DNA of 64,000 nucleotides, taken from IMG/VR virus record IMGVR_UViG_3300037116_000081, positions 1 through 64,000 of that record; one strand, written 5' to 3'. Origin of the DNA: a virus. The notes beneath the pieces are model-generated. The model made no database searches and was not told the DNA's origin. It worked only from the letters and a program-made list of their open reading frames with translations. Shown here piece after piece: positions 12,843 to 53,565 of this stretch. The translations under genes and the position numbers were made by a program. Position 1 is the first letter of the stretch, and each line of letters starts with the position of its first letter.

Positions 12843-13192
12843 GAGGATTCGGTAGCTACAGCAAAACTCCAACTCCATGGGGATGGGAATATTATCCCCC
12901 ACCGTACCGCTTTGCTTCACCGTCCACGGGGCCTAGCGGAATACGTCCGACTTACGCGAGCGCGCGATACATGGGCATGACAACACGAGCGTTGAGCAAC
13001 CAGGGCGGCGGGCTCGGATGTGCGGGGCAGTGCGGTTGCGGTGGGACGTGCGGCATGGGGCAAGTGGATCTTTCGTTTCTGACGAATACGTTCAGCTTGG
13101 CGGGCTACCAGATTCCGGTCTGGATTGGGCTCATGGTTGGGATCGGCGCGGTCGCAATGTACAGCGGGTTGAGCAATAAAAAGAGACGATGA
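12839..13192 (+). CDS. Tail-anchored protein with MRGFG and GMGQ motifs
   Basis: 117 residues; I chose the second ATG because the element's GGAG is 7 bases upstream. MRGFGSYS, an aromatic/Pro stretch, a Gly/Cys cluster (CAGQCGCGGTCGMGQ), DLSFLTN, then YQIPVWIGL with a membrane helix and KKRR end. DLSFLTN is shared with 10440-10727. Confidence 0.65.
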   Translation: MRGFGSYSKTPTPWGWEYYPPPYRFASPSTGPSGIRPTYASARYMGMTTRALSNQGGGLGCAGQCGCGGTCGMGQVDLSFLTNTFSLAGYQIPVWIGLMVGIGAVAMYSGLSNKKRR

Positions 13193-31894: not shown

Positions 31895-32540
31895 GACCCG
31901 AGATCCGTTCCAGCAATCCCATGATCCTGTCCAGCTTGTCTATTATACATTCGCGCTCCTCTGAGCTGTCTTTCGTCGGCTGTTCCTTTTCCGCGTTCGC
32001 GCGCTGAGGCGGCACGGCGAACGCGGCGCTAGCCCTGAGATTGGGCAACACGTCCCCCTGTGAGTTGCCGGGGAAGTGTGGGCCGTCGTGTCCGACGTCG
32101 TACCCACACCGAATAATCCGCGCCCAATCATTCTGAAACCCAGCAGAACCGTGAGGAGTTGAGTAGAAGTACGGGCACTGTTCACGGTGCTTGGCGCATC
32201 CAGCAACACCAGGACAGTCGGGCTGATCATTGTACATTCGCGGGCCGGCATTCCCGCAAATTCCGCATGGCGAATCCGCATATGCTGAATGGGCTCCTGA
32301 GTGGCCATTATTCAACTCGCATGAATTCCCGCCCATGGTGTCCCTCCCGCACTTTTCACGCGGCATAGCGCCCTCCTTGTTTACTAACTTGTGTGGACCG
32401 TAATGCCCTTCGACCATGACACAACCCGTCTCGTGGCACCGCACCAACGGAGTGAATATGTGCTCTCCGTCATGGCCCCGATGGACCCTACATTGCGTGG
32501 TGCCTTCGTAGACCCCGCAACGCGCTGGATCATGCGGCAT
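31887..32540 (-). CDS. Protein with four C-x4-GHxGxH zinc repeats
   Basis: 217 residues from the ATG behind GGAGG. CRVHRGHDGEH, CVMVEGHYGPH, CELNNGHSGAH and CGYDVGHDGPH are four copies of one Cys/His motif; between them CGICGNAGPRMYNDQ-type and CPGVAGCAKH sequence reappears in the protein at 44032. A second ATG at 32366 has the same GGAGGGCGCT leader, so two genes seem to have fused or an internal start is used. Function unknown. Confidence 0.6.
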   Translation of the reverse strand: MPHDPARCGVYEGTTQCRVHRGHDGEHIFTPLVRCHETGCVMVEGHYGPHKLVNKEGAMPREKCGRDTMGGNSCELNNGHSGAHSAYADSPCGICGNAGPRMYNDQPDCPGVAGCAKHREQCPYFYSTPHGSAGFQNDWARIIRCGYDVGHDGPHFPGNSQGDVLPNLRASAAFAVPPQRANAEKEQPTKDSSEERECIIDKLDRIMGLLERISGLR

Positions 32541-45884: not shown

Positions 45885-46232
45885 TTACTCCAGCGCCTCG
45901 TTGACCGTCTCGCCGCGGTTCAGATCGGCAATGACGCCTGCGGCATCGTAGAAGCTTTTCTTCGCCGCTACCCAGATTTGTAGGTAGACCGGAAGCGCAG
46001 TCGGCACTCCGAGGTCCGCAAGATTCTGAGTCTTGTCTATCCATGGAACGCTCGACACGTCTTCGGTTGCGTTGACGGGAATCAGAAATGATCCGGTCCC
46101 CATGCCTCCGATGTTTTCACAGACCAGAACACCAGGCGTGTTGTTCGCCGCCAGTTTTGCGAGAACCCCCGCGGTCTGATCGAGACTGATATTCAGGCTC
46201 GCCCGCGGCGCTTGCAGATTTTCAAAGGGCAT
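45885..46232 (-). CDS. First protein of the duplicated cassette (copy 2)
   Basis: 115 residues, SD AGGAG. SLNISLDQTAGVLAKLAAN, VLVCENIGGMGTGSFLIPVN, YLQIWVAAKKSFYDAAGVI. Matches 35663-36019 in plan. Confidence 0.6.
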   Translation of the reverse strand: MPFENLQAPRASLNISLDQTAGVLAKLAANNTPGVLVCENIGGMGTGSFLIPVNATEDVSSVPWIDKTQNLADLGVPTALPVYLQIWVAAKKSFYDAAGVIADLNRGETVNEALE

Positions 46233-46251: not shown

Positions 46252-46280
46252 ACCTTAGCACTTTCGTGCTACTTGCGCAA
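46252..46280 (-). promoter_or_regulatory. Promoter of cassette copy 2 (TTGCGC-N17-TAAGGT)
   Basis: -35 TTGCGC at 46275-46280 inside the palindrome ACTTGCGCAAGT; -10 TAAGGT at 46252-46257; SD-led start at 46232. Confidence 0.65.
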
Positions 46281-46394
46281 GTACCAAAATGCCTCACCTA
46301 TCAGAAACGCCACAAACACCCCAACAATCAGTATCGCGATCGCCCTCAATGACCCAACCAGCAGCGTCCGCAATACGTGGCCTTTCACCGTCAT
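46269..46394 (-). CDS. 41-residue membrane peptide
   Basis: One helix (RAIAILIVGVFVAFLIGEAF); its C-terminal codons WYLRK and stop overlap the -35 palindrome of the cassette promoter. Confidence 0.45.
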   Translation of the reverse strand: MTVKGHVLRTLLVGSLRAIAILIVGVFVAFLIGEAFWYLRK

Positions 46395-46401
46395 CAGGTC
46401 T

Positions 46402-46581
46402 TTAAGGGGCCAGCATTTTCGCGAACCGAGCCTTGGCCTCGATAAGCCGACGTTCTACTTCTTTGAGTTCGCTCCGCTTCTGGTACGCTTGCCGTTCCAA
46501 GTCCTGGATGTAGTTGAACTGCTCATGTTCGTCCGCATCGGATACCTTGGCTGGCTTGTCAGTATGTTTCGTGTGGCTCAT
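46402..46581 (-). CDS. 59-residue coiled-coil protein
   Basis: MSHTKHTDKPAKVSDADEHE then a coiled coil (YIQDLERQAYQKRSELKEVE). SD AAAGGG for the ATG at 46581; an upstream ATG at 46596 overlaps the previous stop. Possibly a lysis accessory after the holin-like gene. Confidence 0.55.
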   Translation of the reverse strand: MSHTKHTDKPAKVSDADEHEQFNYIQDLERQAYQKRSELKEVERRLIEAKARFAKMLAP

Positions 46582-46592
46582 GTTTTTCCCTT

Positions 46593-46847
46593 TCATGTCT
46601 TCGGCGCCCCGGTCAGAAATCGTCTCGCCAGCTCCGCGCCGGCGTTCACCACGATCAAAACTTCCGCGGTGTAATCATGGCCGTTCCAAACGTACGAGAG
46701 TTTCAGCAGCCATGGAACCCCGAGCGTCACGAAAAGTCCGATGATCTGCACCAGGACCATACGCCCGGCCTTCTGGAGATCGAGGCTATTGAGATGGAAC
46801 TGCCGACTCGAAGTACCTTGGAGTGCGCCTAGCGGGTTTTCGTTCAC
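46593..46847 (-). CDS. Holin-like membrane protein, paralogue of 26266-26520
   Basis: 84 residues, MNENPLGALQGTSSRQFHLN, VLVQIIGLFVTLGVPWLLKL, VLIVVNAGAELARRFLTG. Two helices. The near-identical protein on the other strand suggests each gene block has its own lysis set. Confidence 0.55.
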   Translation of the reverse strand: MNENPLGALQGTSSRQFHLNSLDLQKAGRMVLVQIIGLFVTLGVPWLLKLSYVWNGHDYTAEVLIVVNAGAELARRFLTGAPKT

Positions 46848-47014
46848 TTAACCGCGCTCCCAAAAACAGCGAAGCCCAGGATGCCGATCAGGATGAAAAT
46901 CAGAAGGCCGCCACCGCCCCAGCGAAACCACGGCTTTGAAGCATCGTAGCTGATCCAGTTGTAAAACAGGATCGCAATCACAAAGAAAACCCAGAACCAA
47001 ATCGCCAGCGGCAT
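46844..47014 (-). CDS. 56-residue two-helix membrane protein
   Basis: MPLAIWFWVFFVIAILFYNW and LLIFILIGILGFAVFG helices; SD GGAGG. ATGA overlap with the holin-like gene. Confidence 0.6.
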   Translation of the reverse strand: MPLAIWFWVFFVIAILFYNWISYDASKPWFRWGGGGLLIFILIGILGFAVFGSAVK

Positions 47015-47015
47015 G

Positions 47016-47234
47016 TTAAGCCTCCTTGCGGAGAATGGTATCACTTTTCTCGGCTAGGTATTCCGCCCGCCGTTCCTGCCAGGGTGTCGCATGGTTCTTC
47101 GCCGGCCCGCGGCGCTTGATCTCCCGCGGGGTCACGGGCGGCCCTAGCCACCATCGGAACTTGCTCTTTGGTCCCGGTCTGACGCTGTACTTTGTGCGCA
47201 TCTCGTCAGCGTGCGCTTTTTGCCGATCGGTCAT
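47016..47234 (-). CDS. Small basic protein
   Basis: 72 residues from MTDRQKAHADEMRTKYSVRP (SD AGGAG); Arg/Lys/Pro-rich, KFRWWLGPPVTPREIKRRGP. Overlaps the previous gene by 29 bases. Confidence 0.5.
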   Translation of the reverse strand: MTDRQKAHADEMRTKYSVRPGPKSKFRWWLGPPVTPREIKRRGPAKNHATPWQERRAEYLAEKSDTILRKEA

Positions 47235-47703
47235 AGCCGGTCTCCTTTGCTGGTGGCTTCCTGAGCTTGTAGGCTCGCTCAGCAGCTTCGAGCTCCGCTC
47301 CGTTGCCGGTAGGGTACCCCTCAGCGTCTGCCCACGCAAAGAGCTCCAGAACCTCGGGGCTTGGGGTTTCGGTTTCCATGGGACGCTTGCGCCATATCTC
47401 TTCAGCAGTTCCTGCAACTCTATAAGGATAGCGGCCGGAAGCTTTGCCATAGCTTTGCCGTTGCTTCGCCGTAGCTTTGCCATTTTGGTCTGGAACTACT
47501 TGATAACTGGCAGGTTGCGGACCACCCTGAGAAACAGCGACCAAACCGGCTTTTTTTAGTTCAGCAGTGTATCGATCAAGCTGCCTAAGACTGCAATTCA
47601 GGTGTTTGGCGATTGTCGATCGGTAGGGGTAGACTTCCTGAAAGTGTGCGGCGTACCACCTGAGAAGCTTCAGGTATCGCTGGGCACCACGCGAAAGAGT
47701 CAC
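47206..47703 (-). CDS. Helix-turn-helix replication/regulatory protein
   Basis: 165 residues from a GTG overlapping the previous stop. Residues 1-60 (SRGAQRYLKLLRWYAAHFQE, YRSTIAKHLNCSLRQLDRYT, AELKKAGLVAV) form a winged HTH typical of phage replication initiators and DnaD/RepA-like proteins; a Gln/Lys linker and a helical end follow. Confidence 0.6.
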   Translation of the reverse strand: MTLSRGAQRYLKLLRWYAAHFQEVYPYRSTIAKHLNCSLRQLDRYTAELKKAGLVAVSQGGPQPASYQVVPDQNGKATAKQRQSYGKASGRYPYRVAGTAEEIWRKRPMETETPSPEVLELFAWADAEGYPTGNGAELEAAERAYKLRKPPAKETGYDRSAKSAR

Positions 47704-47927
47704 AGAAGTTTGTACCCCATGACAGCGGCGACCTTCCATCCTAGGTCGGCAATCTTTTCGATGTCTGGGTTTGGTGTGACACCCCGAGACTCCAGAGTCA
47801 CCAGTTTCGAATGACAAAGAGCCGAGTCAATCTCTCCATTCAACTCGATCAACTTAGCATCGATTAACTCTTGGATTAGCAGCAGAGCTGCTGTAGCGTC
47901 GGCCTGCTCTTGCAGGGACATTGACAT
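47700..47927 (-). CDS. Helical hypothetical protein
   Basis: 75 residues, SD GAGGAGG. LQEQADATAALLLIQELIDA, then CHSKLVTLESRG. GTGA coupled to the HTH gene. Confidence 0.5.
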   Translation of the reverse strand: MSMSLQEQADATAALLLIQELIDAKLIELNGEIDSALCHSKLVTLESRGVTPNPDIEKIADLGWKVAAVMGYKLL

Positions 47928-48019
47928 AGAGCCTCCTCGAAAGGCAGTGCAGCGTGGGCTGGAAGTTCGAGGCGACCAGCTCAGCGCTGCACGGGACTCT
48001 TACATCCGCGCCCCTTATT

Positions 48020-48409
48020 CTAACTCAGAATCTGGTGGCGCATCAACCCGGACTTCTTGTAATATTCTCGAAATCCGTCGACGTCGTCCACCTTCAGCAC
48101 CAGAGCTCCGCGATTGGTCTCGGTCACAGCCCAGAGCACCTGGTGTGGCAATGGCCCCTTTCCTGGTGCCTTGAACTCGATCCAGAGCACCTGGGCCGTG
48201 CAGGACGAAGGGGCAACTGAGCCATACCGGATGAACAGGTAATCCGGCATTCCCACTTCCCCGAAGCCTTTACCCCGTGATCGATCGCTTACCGGGTCCG
48301 TTCGTATCGCTCGCCAGCCATCGATCTCCAGCATCAGCACTACCGCTTGCTGAACGTCTGCCTCGCTTATTTTGAGTTTTGCAGTTTTGTGTACGCTTCG
48401 AGCCGGCAT
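48020..48409 (-). CDS. VRR-NUC domain nuclease
   Basis: 129 residues. SEADVQQAVVLMLEIDGWRA, GEVGMPDYLFIR, QVLWIEFKAPGKGPLPHQ (quoted in part) are the PD-(D/E)xK motifs of the VRR-NUC family. Phage members cut branched or specific DNA in recombination and replication. Overlaps the next upstream gene by 43 bases. Confidence 0.75.
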   Translation of the reverse strand: MPARSVHKTAKLKISEADVQQAVVLMLEIDGWRAIRTDPVSDRSRGKGFGEVGMPDYLFIRYGSVAPSSCTAQVLWIEFKAPGKGPLPHQVLWAVTETNRGALVLKVDDVDGFREYYKKSGLMRHQILS

Positions 48410-48507
48410 GTTATGCAATACCTCTTTCTGAAGTCACAGAGCCACGCTGGAGATTTGTTGGGGCATGGGCTCCATCCAAGCAACCAGAACAGTAGCGCAC
48501 GCATCAT
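48367..48507 (-). CDS. 46-residue Cys-containing membrane peptide
   Basis: MMRALLFWLLGWSPCPNKSP, then CDFRKRYCITCRLEAY. ATGA overlap with the gene before. Unknown. Confidence 0.45.
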   Translation of the reverse strand: MMRALLFWLLGWSPCPNKSPAWLCDFRKRYCITCRLEAYTKLQNSK

Positions 48508-48590
48508 CGCGCCGCCAATGCCGCTGCGAAGCCCAGTATCACAGCAGCCACATAGCCCAGAAAGATTCCCCACTTCTGACGACTAGTCAT
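48504..48590 (-). CDS. 28-residue membrane peptide
   Basis: MTSRQKWGIFLGYVAAVILG and an Ala-rich end; start overlaps the stop of the gene before, stop overlaps the next start. Confidence 0.45.
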   Translation of the reverse strand: MTSRQKWGIFLGYVAAVILGFAAALAAR

Positions 48591-49092
48591 CGCCCTCAGT
48601 GTCCTTTGCTTGGCCTTCCGAAATCAGCTTGTCCTGCTTGCCGTCGCCTTCCACTACTAGGTCGAGCATGGTCTGTTTGACGTAGCTCACGTTGAGCACA
48701 CCCTTTCCTTCACCCACCGTGGTAATGTACTCTTCGAGAAATTTGCAGGCCGTGGTGTCTGCGAACTCCACCTTGAAATGCAACTCCAGCCGGTGGCCTT
48801 TGTTCTTCTTGCCTTCGACTTCGTACCGGACGCCCTCGAAGCCAGTAACCGCCGTGGCGTCGAATTCGATCTGGTACTTGGCGAGTGGCCCCTCTTTCGG
48901 CTGGAGACTCGCGTGAGTAGCTGAGAGCCGGCCTTCGAGCTTCGCCGAGGTAACACCGTTCTCGAGTGGCCCCCAGCCCATTGCATCGGCAACGGCCTTT
49001 GAGTAGTTGGCTGAGAAGCTGGAAACGCCGCCCTTGGAAGAACGGCTGAAAGATTTCAGAACAACACCAGTGAATTGAATTGAGGTTGACAT
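48583..49092 (-). CDS. Leaderless early protein, possibly nucleic-acid binding
   Basis: 169 residues. Beta-rich (SIQFTGVVLKSFSRSSKGG, KYQIEFDATAVTGFEGVRYE, HRLELHFKVEFADTTA) with an acidic end (EGQAKDTEGDD), a layout like small phage DNA-binding proteins. ATG 7 bases after the -10 of promoter 49100. Confidence 0.5.
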   Translation of the reverse strand: MSTSIQFTGVVLKSFSRSSKGGVSSFSANYSKAVADAMGWGPLENGVTSAKLEGRLSATHASLQPKEGPLAKYQIEFDATAVTGFEGVRYEVEGKKNKGHRLELHFKVEFADTTACKFLEEYITTVGEGKGVLNVSYVKQTMLDLVVEGDGKQDKLISEGQAKDTEGDD

Positions 49093-49099
49093 GGGTTAC

Positions 49100-49128
49100 A
49101 GAATACTTCTTTCAGCGCAGTTGCGCAA
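49100..49128 (-). promoter_or_regulatory. Promoter (TTGCGC-N17-TATTCT), leaderless
   Basis: -35 at 49123-49128 in GTACTTGCGCAACT, -10 TATTCT at 49100-49105, ATG at 49092 seven bases on. Confidence 0.7.
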
Positions 49129-49140
49129 GTACCAAACTAC

Positions 49141-49276
49141 CGCTTCCAGTGAATCACTTGGCCATGCCACGGCTTCGAGTCCCGACCGCTTCCAGTGAAT
49201 CACTTGGCCATGCCACGGCTTCGAGTCCCGACCGCTTCCAGTGAATCACTTGGCCATGCCACGGCTTCGAGTCCCG
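49141..49276. repeat. Tandem 46-bp repeat, three copies
   Basis: Copies at 49141-49186, 49187-49232 and 49233-49276 are identical apart from the last two bases. They lie at the 3' end of the ASCH gene; since 46 is not a multiple of 3, each copy is read in a new frame. Confidence 0.95.
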
Positions 49277-49672
49277 CGCATCCGTCAGCCGCTTGCTCGC
49301 GATCCAGAACCGCGCCATGTCATCAAGTGACGCACGAAACACATCACCAGTGGGCATCCCGCCGATTGTCTTACCGTTCCTGAATCCGTCGCGCCAAGCG
49401 AACTGGCACGCTTCATCAAGGCTCAACGTCTGATCCGCTATCGTGACTCTCAGCGTGTACGAAATACCTATGCTGGTCAGGTCCAGCGTGATCGGTTCCA
49501 CCTTAACGCAAGGCCAGCGCCCGAGCAGCCGCATGGTCTTCTGACGCGGATCAACGTAGCAGTGGCACATCTCGCCAACCTTCGGAGGATTCTTGCGAAA
49601 GCCCCTGACCGTGTGCGTCTTCGAGCCTTCCTCAACGAACTGCGCAAACTGACGCTGGAAACCTAGCAGCAT
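49154..49672 (-). CDS. ASCH-domain protein with repeat-altered C-terminus
   Basis: 172 residues. MLLGFQRQFAQFVEEGSKTH, TVRGFRKNPPKVGEMCHCYV and LDEACQFAWRDGF are ASCH features, so nucleotide or RNA binding is likely. The final part reads the 46-bp repeat in three frames (WHGQVIHWKR, then SGLEAVAWPSDSLEAV, then GTRSRGMAK). With one repeat the protein would end in WKR and a TAG, which is still present at about 49138. Confidence 0.75.
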   Translation of the reverse strand: MLLGFQRQFAQFVEEGSKTHTVRGFRKNPPKVGEMCHCYVDPRQKTMRLLGRWPCVKVEPITLDLTSIGISYTLRVTIADQTLSLDEACQFAWRDGFRNGKTIGGMPTGDVFRASLDDMARFWIASKRLTDARDSKPWHGQVIHWKRSGLEAVAWPSDSLEAVGTRSRGMAK

Positions 49673-50383
49673 CTATTCAACCCTCAGGCTCATCTTATCG
49701 GTCACAAGGCTGCAACCTGGTACGCCTTGGTTTACTTTGCCGGTCGCGTTGCATTTAGGGCAGCCAGGCGCATCGGAGAATGGTGTCGTGCGGCCGATTC
49801 CGTGACACGCTGCGCACGCTATCTGCTGCTTCAACGCTTCGGCTATCCGGATTTTCATGGGCTCACGCTTCGGGTTCGAGAACGGTAGCGATTCTCCCAG
49901 GCGTTGGGCTTCAGGATCTTTAGATTCGCGACATGCAGCTTTCAGCGTGATGACATCGGCCACGGTGAGCTTTAGCTCTGATGCGCAATACTCTGCGGGA
50001 ACCAATTCCGGCTGGGCTATCTCTACGCTTGCCGGACACTTCACCAGCCTCAGCGTATTCGAGTCTCCGTCCAACCGTGCTTTGCCGCTCATCAGCATGA
50101 CCGACTTCACCAGCGTCTTTAATCGTTCGTGCCGAGCTTCCCACGCATCCGCCCTAGCCTTCAGCCGTTTCGCTTCTTCCTTTGCCGCGGCCGCGCGCGC
50201 TTCGAACTCTTTCAGGTAATACGCCACGCCGTCTACTTTCTTGATTTCTCGCCCGACGTATTCGCGAATCTCGATGTCCTTCTCAATAATCGAAAGACCT
50301 TCGGCCGCCAGTTCCTCACGTTCGAACATCAGCCGCATGAGCGTGGCTTCCAGGTTATACAGTGTTAGGTTTGCTGTGCTCAT
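49673..50383 (-). CDS. Gp157-like protein with C-terminal zinc finger
   Basis: 236 residues. YNLEATLMRLMFEREELAAE, long coiled coil (LKEFEARAAAAKEEAKRLKA), SVMLMSGKARLDGDSNTLRL and PASVEIAQPELVPAEYC match the Siphovirus Gp157 family of recombination/replication regions. A DnaJ-type zinc finger (CAACHGIG, CPKCNATGKV) is added at the C-terminus. Confidence 0.75.
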   Translation of the reverse strand: MSTANLTLYNLEATLMRLMFEREELAAEGLSIIEKDIEIREYVGREIKKVDGVAYYLKEFEARAAAAKEEAKRLKARADAWEARHERLKTLVKSVMLMSGKARLDGDSNTLRLVKCPASVEIAQPELVPAEYCASELKLTVADVITLKAACRESKDPEAQRLGESLPFSNPKREPMKIRIAEALKQQIACAACHGIGRTTPFSDAPGCPKCNATGKVNQGVPGCSLVTDKMSLRVE

Positions 50384-50577
50384 TTCTTTGGCTCCTGTAG
50401 GTCCAGCGTTCTCGATTGGCCGGCGTCACTGCGCTTCTTGCGCTTTGGCTGCGCTTCCATTAATTCACGTACGTCGATCACGCCTTGCGCCCACCACACG
50501 AATTCCATTACCTCTTTGAGTGGAGCTGTCCGGACAAACTCTTGACAGTCCCAGATTTCAACCTTCTTGTCAGGCAT
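50380..50577 (-). CDS. Hypothetical 65-residue protein
   Basis: IWDCQEFVRTAPLKEVMEFV, then a basic PKRKKRSDAGQ. ATGA overlap with the Gp157-like gene. Confidence 0.5.
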   Translation of the reverse strand: MPDKKVEIWDCQEFVRTAPLKEVMEFVWWAQGVIDVRELMEAQPKRKKRSDAGQSRTLDLQEPKK

Positions 50578-50579
50578 GT

Positions 50580-50780
50580 TTATTTCGACAGTTCCTCTCT
50601 ACGCAGTTGCTTGTCTTCGTACTCAATCGTTGCATCGTCGAGCGTTTGTTGGGTGGTCTCTCGATACCGAGCGTGAGCGATCGCGCACTCTGGTAGCCCG
50701 CAATGCTCGCTCCCAACAATCCGCTTGCAACGTCCCTTCCTGTTCGGAATAAATTCGTGCATGTGTCGCGGGTCAGCCAT
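50580..50780 (-). CDS. Small zinc-binding protein
   Basis: 66 residues. HEFIPNRKGRCKRIVGSEHC and GLPECAIAH give a Cys/His zinc site, then a charged helix. Common in phage early regions. Confidence 0.5.
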   Translation of the reverse strand: MADPRHMHEFIPNRKGRCKRIVGSEHCGLPECAIAHARYRETTQQTLDDATIEYEDKQLRREELSK

Positions 50781-50789
50781 TCGTTCCTC

Positions 50790-51326
50790 CTAGAAAGGTA
50801 CCCAGTCGTCGCTCGGTATGTCTCCGTCCGGTTCTTGCCCTTGCGTCTGTTGTTCGGCGTCTTCCGGCTTGCGATCCTTCACACGGATGTAATCCCGAAC
50901 CTTCGGCGCTTCCATCGCTTTGGGTAGTCGCATGATCGTAGTGACGTTTGCGTACGTGTCACCTTCCTTGGTGACCTGCATCACGTTCAGCAAAGCTGGA
51001 GCACTCAGTAGCGTTTCGAGATCGAAGCCCTGAAGTTGTTCGTCGCTGAACGGTATACCACGCCACGATTCCAGATCCTTCAGCAGCGCTGCCTTCTTGT
51101 GCAGGCTTAACGTGTAGCGCTTTTGGACGATGTAAGGTTTGTTGTCCGCCATCACTTCCGCAATCTGCCAAACGATTCGAACCTTGTGCTGGCTTTTCTT
51201 TTTCCCGCCGTAGGAGACTTCAAGTACACCCATGTCCACAACGTCACAGCAAACCGCCGCATGGGCGCCGGCTGGCGCCGGGATGAAGTCTCGCCCGCCT
51301 CCAGTTGCTTTCGCCACGATAGCCAT
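50790..51326 (-). CDS. Single-stranded-DNA-binding-like protein
   Basis: 178 residues. AGAHAAVCCDVVDMGVLEVS, KSQHKVRIVWQIAEVMADNK, KRYTLSLHKKAALLKDLESW outline an OB-type phage SSB; the acidic end DGDIPSDDWVPF with a terminal aromatic resembles SSB tails that recruit partners. Confidence 0.65.
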   Translation of the reverse strand: MAIVAKATGGGRDFIPAPAGAHAAVCCDVVDMGVLEVSYGGKKKSQHKVRIVWQIAEVMADNKPYIVQKRYTLSLHKKAALLKDLESWRGIPFSDEQLQGFDLETLLSAPALLNVMQVTKEGDTYANVTTIMRLPKAMEAPKVRDYIRVKDRKPEDAEQQTQGQEPDGDIPSDDWVPF

Positions 51327-51472
51327 TACGCACTCTCCTTTTCTTCGATCTCCGGATAGTCTTGATCGCGCTCCGCATTCGCCCAGGCTTTCGCGACTCG
51401 CTTCCGCATCGCTTGGGTAATTGCCGGCTGCGATTCTCGAAAGTCTAGATCCAGCTTTTCATCAGGTTCCAT
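51326..51472 (-). CDS. 48-residue charged protein
   Basis: MEPDEKLDLDFRESQPAITQ, helical and charged, TAATG junction to the SSB-like gene. ATG 7 bases after the -10 of promoter 51480. Confidence 0.5.
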   Translation of the reverse strand: MEPDEKLDLDFRESQPAITQAMRKRVAKAWANAERDQDYPEIEEKESA

Positions 51473-51479
51473 GCTTTCG

Positions 51480-51508
51480 ATTCTGAACTGAGAACGTGTT
51501 TACAGCAA
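51480..51508 (-). promoter_or_regulatory. Promoter (TTGCTG-N17-CAGAAT), leaderless
   Basis: -35 at 51503-51508, -10 CAGAAT at 51480-51485, ATG at 51472. Drives SSB-like, zinc, Gp157-like and ASCH genes. Confidence 0.55.
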
Positions 51509-51521
51509 TGGAACTGAGGTA

Positions 51522-51881
51522 CTAGCGCCGCTTTCGGTTACGTTTCAGCGCCATCCCGATAATCATCAAAGCTATCCCGAGTGTGAACATAAACATGGTC
51601 GGCTCCGGAGTGGTGGCAACGATCGGTGGTAGCGGTGGAGGTACGATCGTATGCCCCGGCGGAATGATCACCGCCTTGTACGCCAGCGGCACCCATGTCT
51701 CGGCCTTTGGAGCACACCACTGGATCGCTGGATTCAGCACGGAATCCGCACAGATAATCTTATTCGACCCATTGGCGAAGTACACCGTCGCGGTCCACGC
51801 ATCCTGCTGCATGGTGAGAAGAAGATCCTGGTAGGCGAACGCCCCATCGCCGTTCCCGGTAGGCTGTTGATTGATAATCAT
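51522..51881 (-). CDS. PEP-CTERM-like protein (copy 2)
   Basis: 119 residues. QQPTGNGDGAFAYQDLLLTM, NPAIQWCAPKAETWVP, a Pro stalk, then TTPEPTMFMFTLGIALMIIG and KRNRKRR: Pro-Glu-Pro, a helix and an Arg-rich end, the three parts of a PEP-CTERM signal read by exosortase in Gram-negative hosts. Paralogue of 39564-39971. Confidence 0.6.
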   Translation of the reverse strand: MIINQQPTGNGDGAFAYQDLLLTMQQDAWTATVYFANGSNKIICADSVLNPAIQWCAPKAETWVPLAYKAVIIPPGHTIVPPPLPPIVATTPEPTMFMFTLGIALMIIGMALKRNRKRR

Positions 51882-51970
51882 GCGTCAGTTGAGCCCTCGC
51901 GAATGCGCCGTGCACGTTGCCCGCGAAGTTCTCACCGGGGCAACAAGAGACTTGGCGCATTCGTCAAAGC

Positions 51971-52126
51971 TCAGCAGTCGCCGAAATTAACAGTCCAGAG
52001 CGCGACGATCTTCTGCCACAACGATCCATGGCCGGTCATCTGTATTTCACAGGTCCCGTACTTGTAAGTCGTCGCCAACAGTGGCAGACCGCAGATCAGC
52101 ACACCACATGCGAGAATGCGTTTCAT
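51971..52126 (-). CDS. 51-residue exported peptide (copy 2)
   Basis: Identical to 39061-39216 except for a residue or two (GSLWQKI against GSFWQKI). SD AAAGGAG. Confidence 0.6.
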   Translation of the reverse strand: MKRILACGVLICGLPLLATTYKYGTCEIQMTGHGSLWQKIVALWTVNFGDC

Positions 52127-52158
52127 TTTGTCTCCTTTCTCCCCATTTCTTTCGTCTT

Positions 52159-52229
52159 GCGCTGCTACTACTCCTCATGAGAATAGCTCCCACATATCGG
52201 ACAACGGCCCTGCCTTCCGGGTGCAGCGC
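52159..52229. repeat. Interrupted palindromic element E34
   Basis: Arms GCGCTGC (52159-52165) and GCAGCGC (52223-52229) are intact, but about 57 bases encoding CxxC zinc-ribbon sequence lie between them in place of the 9-base loop. Confidence 0.55.
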
Positions 52230-52368
52230 AACCCCAGCATTGAAGTAGCTCATTCTTTGGCCATTTCGCACGGTCAGTCTTTGGGTACTTTGTCATTGAC
52301 GTGAGCACTTCGTACGCAGCCATCCCGAACAGGCATACGATGAGGAGAAAGCAGCCAAGCGCGATCAT
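52168..52368 (-). CDS. Membrane peptide extended by a zinc ribbon (copy 2)
   Basis: 66 residues. Same as 40496-40621 up to KWPKNE, then LLQCWGCAAPGRQGRCPICG adds a CxxC...CxxC site. The added part sits between the arms of element E34. Confidence 0.6.
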   Translation of the reverse strand: MIALGCFLLIVCLFGMAAYEVLTSMTKYPKTDRAKWPKNELLQCWGCAAPGRQGRCPICGSYSHEE

Positions 52369-52550
52369 CGCTTAATCCACTTCCACAGGCGTATCCACCA
52401 AGGAGCAGGTTGCGAATAAAAGACACAATTCAGGTAGATCGCCCGCGGCTCATCCAAAGACTGAACCGGAGGAAATTGAAACGCATCCCGGCCATTGCCG
52501 TAAAAGACGCAGCTAGTGAAAGCGGGGGTCTGCTGTTTTTCTGGTTCCAT
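52365..52550 (-). CDS. Hypothetical 61-residue protein
   Basis: FTSCVFYGNGRDAFQFPPVQ, NCVFYSQPAPWWIRLWKW; ATGA and TAATG junctions. Confidence 0.5.
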   Translation of the reverse strand: MEPEKQQTPAFTSCVFYGNGRDAFQFPPVQSLDEPRAIYLNCVFYSQPAPWWIRLWKWIKR

Positions 52551-52885
52551 CAGTACTCGATTTCCTGATTGCTCTTGCAGCCCACTTTATGGCACGATGC
52601 TTGCCCGTTGATGATTGGCTCCGCGCATTCAGGACAGAACTCCGTCCGTGGTTTCGGCGCGGCCTCGAACGCCACGCGCGCTTCGCGTTCCTGGTCTTCG
52701 GTCTGCTCTTCGTAGCCGGAATCCGTCAACTGCTCGCGAAGATTTGCAATTGCCGCGCTCTCCGTCGCGCCTCGGCCTACATGCCATTCTTCGCGCCCGT
52801 CGAGCCACGCGGACCAATCCATGGAACGAATAGGAATCGGTGGATAGTCGAAGTTGGTTTTTACTGTGGCGTTTCCGATTCTCAT
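52550..52885 (-). CDS. Hypothetical protein with C-terminal zinc ribbon
   Basis: 111 residues. DWSAWLDGREEWHVGRGATE, SAAIANLREQLTDSGYEEQT, then FCPECAEPIINGQASCHKVG and CKS: a zinc ribbon. The first part looks like a small alpha/beta domain. Confidence 0.55.
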   Translation of the reverse strand: MRIGNATVKTNFDYPPIPIRSMDWSAWLDGREEWHVGRGATESAAIANLREQLTDSGYEEQTEDQEREARVAFEAAPKPRTEFCPECAEPIINGQASCHKVGCKSNQEIEY

Positions 52886-53070
52886 GCAACCTCCTCAAGA
52901 TCCGGCTCGGCGTATTCCGCTTTCCAGTTCGCCTCTGCGATTTCAGAGAGGCGGTTTTGAAGTTGCTTGGCGTCTTCTGCCAAGCCGGTTTCGCGTAGCA
53001 CGACAAGCTGCTTAATTAGCGTGTCCAACGTGTCGCCCGCGTCCTGCAAGAGCTGGTAGCGCGTCTTCAT
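52882..53070 (-). CDS. 62-residue helical protein, leaderless
   Basis: Two helices (YQLLQDAGDTLDTLIKQLVV, EDAKQLQNRLSEIAEANW). First gene after promoter 53077; ATG 6 bases from the -10. Confidence 0.55.
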   Translation of the reverse strand: MKTRYQLLQDAGDTLDTLIKQLVVLRETGLAEDAKQLQNRLSEIAEANWKAEYAEPDLEEVA

Positions 53071-53076
53071 GAACTG

Positions 53077-53105
53077 ATTATGCTTGAGAAACGGTAGTTG
53101 CGCAA
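53077..53105 (-). promoter_or_regulatory. Promoter (TTGCGC-N17-CATAAT), leaderless
   Basis: -35 at 53100-53105 in CTACTTGCGCAACT; -10 CATAAT at 53077-53082; ATG at 53070. Confidence 0.7.
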
Positions 53106-53235
53106 GTAGGCAGAAAGTACCGATTGTGACTTAGTACCGAGGTTCTAAGGGCTGGCTGCCTTATTTCCAGCCCCACTGCATTTGGCGCGCCCTCCGTGAC
53201 CGAGACCGGGGTGGAAGCCCGAGCGCCAAAAAACT

Positions 53236-53412
53236 TTAAGCCCGGCGTCCGTCCATCGGCAATCCCCGCAGATGCCGTGTTGGGCTCTTTAACAGCAGCC
53301 GCACGCCCGTGGCTACCAGGACGCCGATGGTCGTTTTCTTGTCTTCTGCGAGCTTCGTAAGCTGCTGGTGATGCTCTGGAGTCACGAAGCCGGATACCTT
53401 GACGGGTTTCAC
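53236..53412 (-). CDS. Ribbon-helix-helix-like regulator, leaderless
   Basis: 58 residues from a GTG 7 bases after the -10. KPVKVSGFVTPEHHQQLTKL and AEDKKTTIGVLVATGVRLLL follow the strand-helix-helix pattern of MetJ/Arc-type proteins. A good candidate for the protein that binds the ACTTGCGCAAGT palindromes, by its early position. Confidence 0.6.
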   Translation of the reverse strand: MKPVKVSGFVTPEHHQQLTKLAEDKKTTIGVLVATGVRLLLKSPTRHLRGLPMDGRRA

Positions 53413-53419
53413 AGACTTG

Positions 53420-53448
53420 ATTGTATGGCAGGATGCAGAGTTGCGCAA
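53420..53448 (-). promoter_or_regulatory. Promoter (TTGCGC-N17-TACAAT), leaderless
   Basis: -35 at 53443-53448, strong -10 TACAAT at 53420-53425, GTG at 53412. Confidence 0.72.
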
Positions 53449-53528
53449 GTTTCAAAAAGACCGGAGCGCCAGACATTCGCGAGAGCGCCCCGGTTGGCAT
53501 GACAGTCCTCTAACGTCCTAACGCTGGA

Positions 53529-53557
53529 ATGCTATCACAGACTCAGTACTTGCGCAA
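53529..53557 (-). promoter_or_regulatory. Promoter (TTGCGC-N17-TAGCAT) with full palindrome
   Basis: The -35 at 53552-53557 lies in the perfect palindrome ACTTGCGCAAGT; -10 TAGCAT at 53529-53534. Directly downstream of the last tail gene. Confidence 0.62.
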
Positions 53558-53565
53558 GTGCTAAC

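Follow-up and report, generated by a model that had tools for sequence, protein, structure and literature searches.

A palindrome overlapping the −35 box as probable operator of a small phage RHH repressor

The window analysed is a stretch of 64,000 nucleotides, bases 1–64000 of an 85,924-base (85.9-kb) virus record whose remaining bases were also read (L001, L002). On its minus strand, at 53236..53412, lies a gene with a predicted leaderless start that encodes a 58-aa RHH-like protein, (V/M)KPVKVSGFV...TTIGVLVATGVRLLLK...MDGRRA, the proposed ligand of all the palindromes described below. The gene is preceded by the palindrome ACTTGCGCAACT (53439..53450, minus strand), which contains the −35 box TTGCGC (53448–53443). 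This box is followed after 17 bp by the −10 box TACAAT (53425–53420) and, 7 nt beyond, by the GTG start codon of the RHH gene. A second palindrome, ACTTGCGCAAGT, lies 109 bp upstream of the first (53548..53559, minus strand), with a −35 box 17 bp from the −10 box TAGCAT (53534–53529) and no close start codon; it is probably a second, upstream promoter/operator of the RHH gene.

Three further minus-strand palindromes in the window are associated with promoters. The palindrome at 53096..53107 precedes the −10 box CATAAT (53082–53077) and the leaderless ATG (53070) of a 62-aa gene (52882–53070), and an orthologous promoter is present at 12911 in the related phage G049. The palindrome at 49119..49130, with the −10 box TATTCT (49105–49100), precedes the leaderless ATG (49092) of a 169-aa gene (48583–49092) in the replication/recombination region; orthologous promoters occur at G022:15290 and G049:16709. 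Adjoining this palindrome, at 49150–49280, a 46-bp unit (CCGCTTCCAGTGAATCACTTGGCCATGCCACGGCTTCGAGTCCCGA) is repeated three times in tandem at the 3′ end of the gene 49154–49672. At 46271..46282, the palindrome and its −10 box TAAGGT (46257–46252) are followed by a 19-nt leader with a Shine–Dalgarno sequence and the ATG (46232) of the gene 45885–46232, which belongs to the accessory operon at 46 kb. This Shine–Dalgarno leader is kept in four phages, the arrangement being common to G020, G021 and G049.

An earlier note on this DNA had described five promoters in which TTGCGC is embedded in [A/G]CTTGCGCAA[G/C]T, each exactly 17 bp from a −10 box. All five are confirmed, all on the minus strand, and the coordinates used for them (46252, 49100, 53077, 53420 and 53529) mark the downstream end of each −10 box. 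The GTA that the note placed just upstream of the palindrome is found at 46280 and 49128 only, the remaining sites having CTA, AAA or GCA.

Beyond the window, a palindrome promoter at 72941 (−10 box TAACAT) lies 6 nt from the GTG of a 424-aa, MuF-like head gene. Another, at 83389 (−10 box TAATAT), lies directly behind terL (large terminase) and has no close start codon. A variant, eighth palindrome at 85213 is positioned 10 bp before an extended −10 box (TGCTATCCT), ahead of a probable small terminase gene. The proposal of one coherent promoter class is supported; the description of that class as early-gene is too narrow, as orthologous sites at these head and packaging genes show that the regulon would not be limited to early genes. 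In the MuF-like head protein encoded at record positions 71632–72906 (L001:7632–8906), a histidine phosphatase domain is fused N-terminally to the MuF-like part (His_Phos_1, 5.5e-9; Phage_Mu_F, 0.008), and the fusion gene has a leaderless GTG start.

Across the 41–86 kb region of the record, TTGCGCAA is the top over-represented palindromic 8-mer (9 seen versus 1.05 expected, P 2e-6), and the left 41 kb shows no over-representation of it. When the palindrome is searched as a 10-mer with up to two mismatches, its count is at chance level, so the signal lies in the exact core plus its flanks. In seven phages, a −10 box at exactly 17 bp from the palindrome −35 box was seen 14 times versus 0.5 expected (P about 1e-16), with four further cases at 18 bp. 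The combined motif across phages is GTACTTGCGCAAGTAC; because the motif search demanded the core TTGCGCAA, with one variant allowed, it is the flanks, conserved on either side, that are informative. Conservation covers both palindrome halves, including the half outside the −35 box. Some sites fall in the promoter spacer, 3–10 bp from the −10 box, and are at odds with a pure −35 role. Hexamers resembling a −10 box also peak at a distance of 6 bp from the palindrome, but this signal was rejected, being the conserved upstream flank TTTNGTAC in reverse reading.

The earlier note had also proposed leaderless starts as a mark of this promoter class. A distance of 6–7 nt from the −10 box to an ATG or GTG is found at 49100, 53077, 53420, 44257, 30452 and 51480 (the last with a weak −10 box, CAGAAT); the 50-bp cassettes for which it had likewise been claimed do not have the look of leaderless starts. 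In all phages compared, this distance peaks at 6 and 7 nt (14 and 13 cases, versus about 2–3 at most other distances); the spacing is also present in phages with neither palindrome nor RHH gene, and the 46252 promoter has its Shine–Dalgarno leader. The predicted leaderless starts are a feature of these phages, and presumably of their host, not of the palindrome promoter class.

The 50-bp cassettes are hairpins: their self-complementary 7–8-bp stems differ through compensated pair changes, and the ACTGGAGTA loop that they enclose is almost invariant. All twelve copies (2362, 3055, 5401, 8843, 12816, 18517, 33747, 36347, 38226, 38445, 39593 and 40479) map within the left 41 kb. Several of them immediately precede GGGAGG, a Shine–Dalgarno site, and an ATG, and the cassette looks like a repeated 5′-leader RNA element. 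The right 45 kb of the record matches 40-kb relatives. In the left 41 kb the structural-looking genes are different ones, on the plus strand; this part also has a repeat of its own and, in diverged form, copies of accessory genes from the right-hand part (for example 1353–1985/42620–43234 and 34388–34960/44545–45021). The record may thus be two viruses joined.

Seven related uncultured phages also contain the palindrome. Exact searches for the promoter pattern across the viral collection as a whole gave hits about as numerous as chance, estimated from collection size, would give. When 18 scan hits were checked as whole records, only G001 had more than one site; this phage, found by promoter pattern alone, has four palindromes, an RHH gene and structural genes in common with the present phage. 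When the products of the 424-aa gene and the terminase gene and the capsid protein served as search queries, about 30 relatives were retrieved, and only distant ones were found among 50,000 phage records. In G020, G021, G022, G027 and G001, palindromes are located at promoters, often of orthologous genes, and in G023 a palindrome lies behind terL. The recurrent positions are those at the RHH gene, the MuF head gene, the small terminase gene, the 169-aa gene and the 46-kb accessory operon. A literature search on the palindrome returned only unrelated papers.

A profile of the RHH family matches in G000, G001, G020, G021, G022 and G027, and gives no match in G028, G030, G032, G034, G036, G041 or G045. 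Palindromes are present in 7 of 7 large records with the RHH family versus 0 of 7 without it (P 3e-4), a comparison to which G044 is an exception and in which G001, chosen by palindrome, and G049, chosen by RHH gene, are not independent draws for both traits. A single half-fitting palindrome copy occurs in G036. Among real-looking genes, only those for the RHH protein and an FkbM-type methyltransferase share the exact distribution of the palindrome. The RHH/palindrome carriers do not form one clade in the capsid tree, and the best tree needs at least three changes, although only one is forced by branches with strong support.

In all seven carriers (one copy degenerate) and in G044, a palindrome precedes the RHH gene. 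The orthologous promoter is found in G001, G020, G021, G022, G027 and G049, the degenerate copy being that of G020, which has a mismatch (TTGCGAAA); judged by sequence arrangement, an inverted repeat thus lies within the RHH gene's own predicted promoter in eight phages. G044, the most distant relative, has eight copies of TTGCGCAA and lacks this RHH family. It encodes instead an RHH_1 protein of another family, scoring above the RHH_1 cut-off, and the gene lies directly behind a palindrome in the arrangement TTGCGC-18-TACGCT. Another sequence over-represented in G044, CCTCGAGG, was discarded as it has no promoter arrangement.

Single dyads at G020:8800, G028:27864 and G030:9928 were likewise rejected, each occurring once per genome; XRE-type regulators had been expected behind them, and the genes instead appear to encode a second RHH-like protein (G020/G021, G030) or have no assignment. 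The second, unrelated RHH-like small protein of G020/G021 (L068:8615–8800) and the one of G030 (L112:9764–9928) were recognised by eye and have no Pfam match. Each gene is leaderless, and its promoter has the −10 box within a palindrome unlike the main one (CTACATTAGAATGTAG; AGATAGCTGTATAGTTATCT).

As a near-blind test, the RHH protein was used as sole query, and the search yielded a single new phage, G049 (44,886 bases), whose capsid protein is only 34% identical. The palindrome occurs ten times in G049, and the reversed control not once. One copy heads the RHH gene there, in the arrangement TTGCGC-17-TACAAT-7-GTG, and of five further sites 17 bp from a −10 box, three precede orthologues of the 53077, 49100 and 46252 genes. 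At 32206, a palindrome lies only 3 bp from a perfect TATAAT, with a GTG start 6 nt beyond, which excludes a −35 role at that site.

Assignment of the 58-aa protein to the RHH fold draws on several weak matches. In Pfam, Antitox_RHH matches with an E-value of 0.0011, below the curated cut-off, and RHH proteins rank first, with weak E-values, when a profile of seven relatives is compared with the PDB; searches of PHROGs and of the phage record collection gave no match. A structure model (mean pLDDT 69) has helices at residues 12–24 and 29–42 after an N-terminal stretch. The putative N-terminal strand is not formed in this monomer model; the N-terminal VKVSGFV region is conserved in the family. 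Fold matches of the model are weak and mostly to RHH proteins: ORF56, ParG, TacA, CopA, NikA, Arc, AvtR and CopG. RHH dimers insert a two-stranded sheet into the DNA major groove, and the usual action of viral RHH proteins is to cover elements of their own promoter and thereby repress it (PMC5569661).

From the sites, their spacing, their conservation and their co-distribution with RHH genes, we infer that ACTTGCGCAA[G/C]T (extended, GTACTTGCGCAAGTAC) is probably the operator of an autoregulating phage RHH repressor, sharing its DNA with the −35 box. The earlier suggestions that the palindrome could double as an operator and that the RHH protein was its likely ligand gain support from the co-distribution, from the position of a palindrome ahead of every carrier's RHH gene and from the prediction of a new phage. 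It is proposed that the −35 box read by a host sigma-70-type polymerase is a weak one beginning with the palindrome's TTG, 17–18 bp from a good −10 box. Occupying the palindrome, whose centre lies some 32 bp ahead of the start codon in leaderless genes, an RHH dimer or dimer pair would mask the −35 box and thereby close the promoter. Closing its own gene likewise, the protein would set the level of a regulon with about eight sites across the phage genome, comprising the RHH gene, the 62-aa gene, the replication-region gene, the accessory/lysis operon, the head gene and the terminase sites. Palindromes between the −35 and −10 boxes, as at 85213 and in relatives, would have an operator role only. 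The constant spacing and the conservation of the second half would both follow from an operator that doubles as a −35 box.

The palindrome might instead be the site of an RHH protein that activates, or that activates or represses by dose as AvtR does. TTGCGC, identical to TTGACA at only three of six positions, could be a poor −35 box needing help, and AvtR, an archaeal virus regulator, is reported both to activate and to repress (PMC5569661). However, the palindrome is centred on the −35 box or in the spacer, where a bound protein normally blocks polymerase, and activation is unlikely; it is solely this position of the sites that favours repression over activation. The fixed 17/18-bp spacing to the −10 box would also suit a −35 element, formed by TTGCGC and its flanks, for an alternative sigma factor of phage or host, with only incidental symmetry. 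This is very improbable, as conservation of the downstream half (AA[G/C]T) almost equals that of the upstream half, the −10 boxes have the ordinary form TAnnnT, sites exist in the spacer and site presence follows the RHH gene. Little credence is given to a host protein reading the palindrome, with the RHH gene merely another target: the contact of RHH protein and palindrome is a prediction and a search of a bacterial genome collection for prophages found no relatives and identified no host, but seven relatives without this RHH family, some at 70–71% capsid identity, lack the sites, and related phages probably have related hosts.

Seven records, fragments among them, contained no tyrosine integrase, serine recombinase or resolvase; under the preferred reading, in which the RHH protein is an autoregulating repressor, it may therefore govern the timing of the lytic programme instead of holding lysogeny. 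A broader proposal, which we advance tentatively and with some doubt, is that this family of tailed phages, in which no integrase was detected, could place the entire lytic programme, both early and late, under one tiny RHH protein as master switch. Its operators would at the same time be the −35 boxes of promoters that are mostly leaderless, and different RHH families would have taken over the same palindrome (G044). With the findings reported here, an uncultured phage group gains a defined candidate regulator, operator and target list, testable with one small protein and an oligonucleotide. Operator–regulator pairing would be achievable from metagenomes by co-distribution, and the compact repressor–promoter pair is a possible genetic part.

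Arc and Mnt of phage P22 are RHH repressors with few operators in one immunity region. Unlike these proteins, which are not known to have a genome-wide set of sites, the present candidate would act at a phage-wide set, and Arc appears only among the weak fold matches. The leaderless component is ordinary: leaderless starts are known for many bacteria, and TA-led genes, in which TANNNT precedes the start codon by about 12 bp, have the same layout (PMC3160421). Cluster A mycobacteriophages similarly combine one repressor with many genome-wide sites, and the motif shifts along with the repressor; their stoperators, however, are asymmetric, lie mostly outside promoters, bind another kind of protein and belong to temperate phages (PMC6550527). 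The sites described here are palindromic and mostly in promoters, in phages that gave no integrase in seven records, fragments included, and a stoperator system was accordingly rejected. Similar in design are the archaeal virus regulators F55 of SSV1, SvtR of SIRV1 and AvtR of AFV6, small virus-encoded RHH proteins that repress their own and several other promoters by covering promoter elements; AvtR has eight potential genomic sites, conserved in its genus (PMC5569661). In contrast with these three, the candidate repressor belongs to bacterial tailed phages, its proposed binding sequence is a different one, and a single palindrome would serve as the sigma-70-type −35 box.
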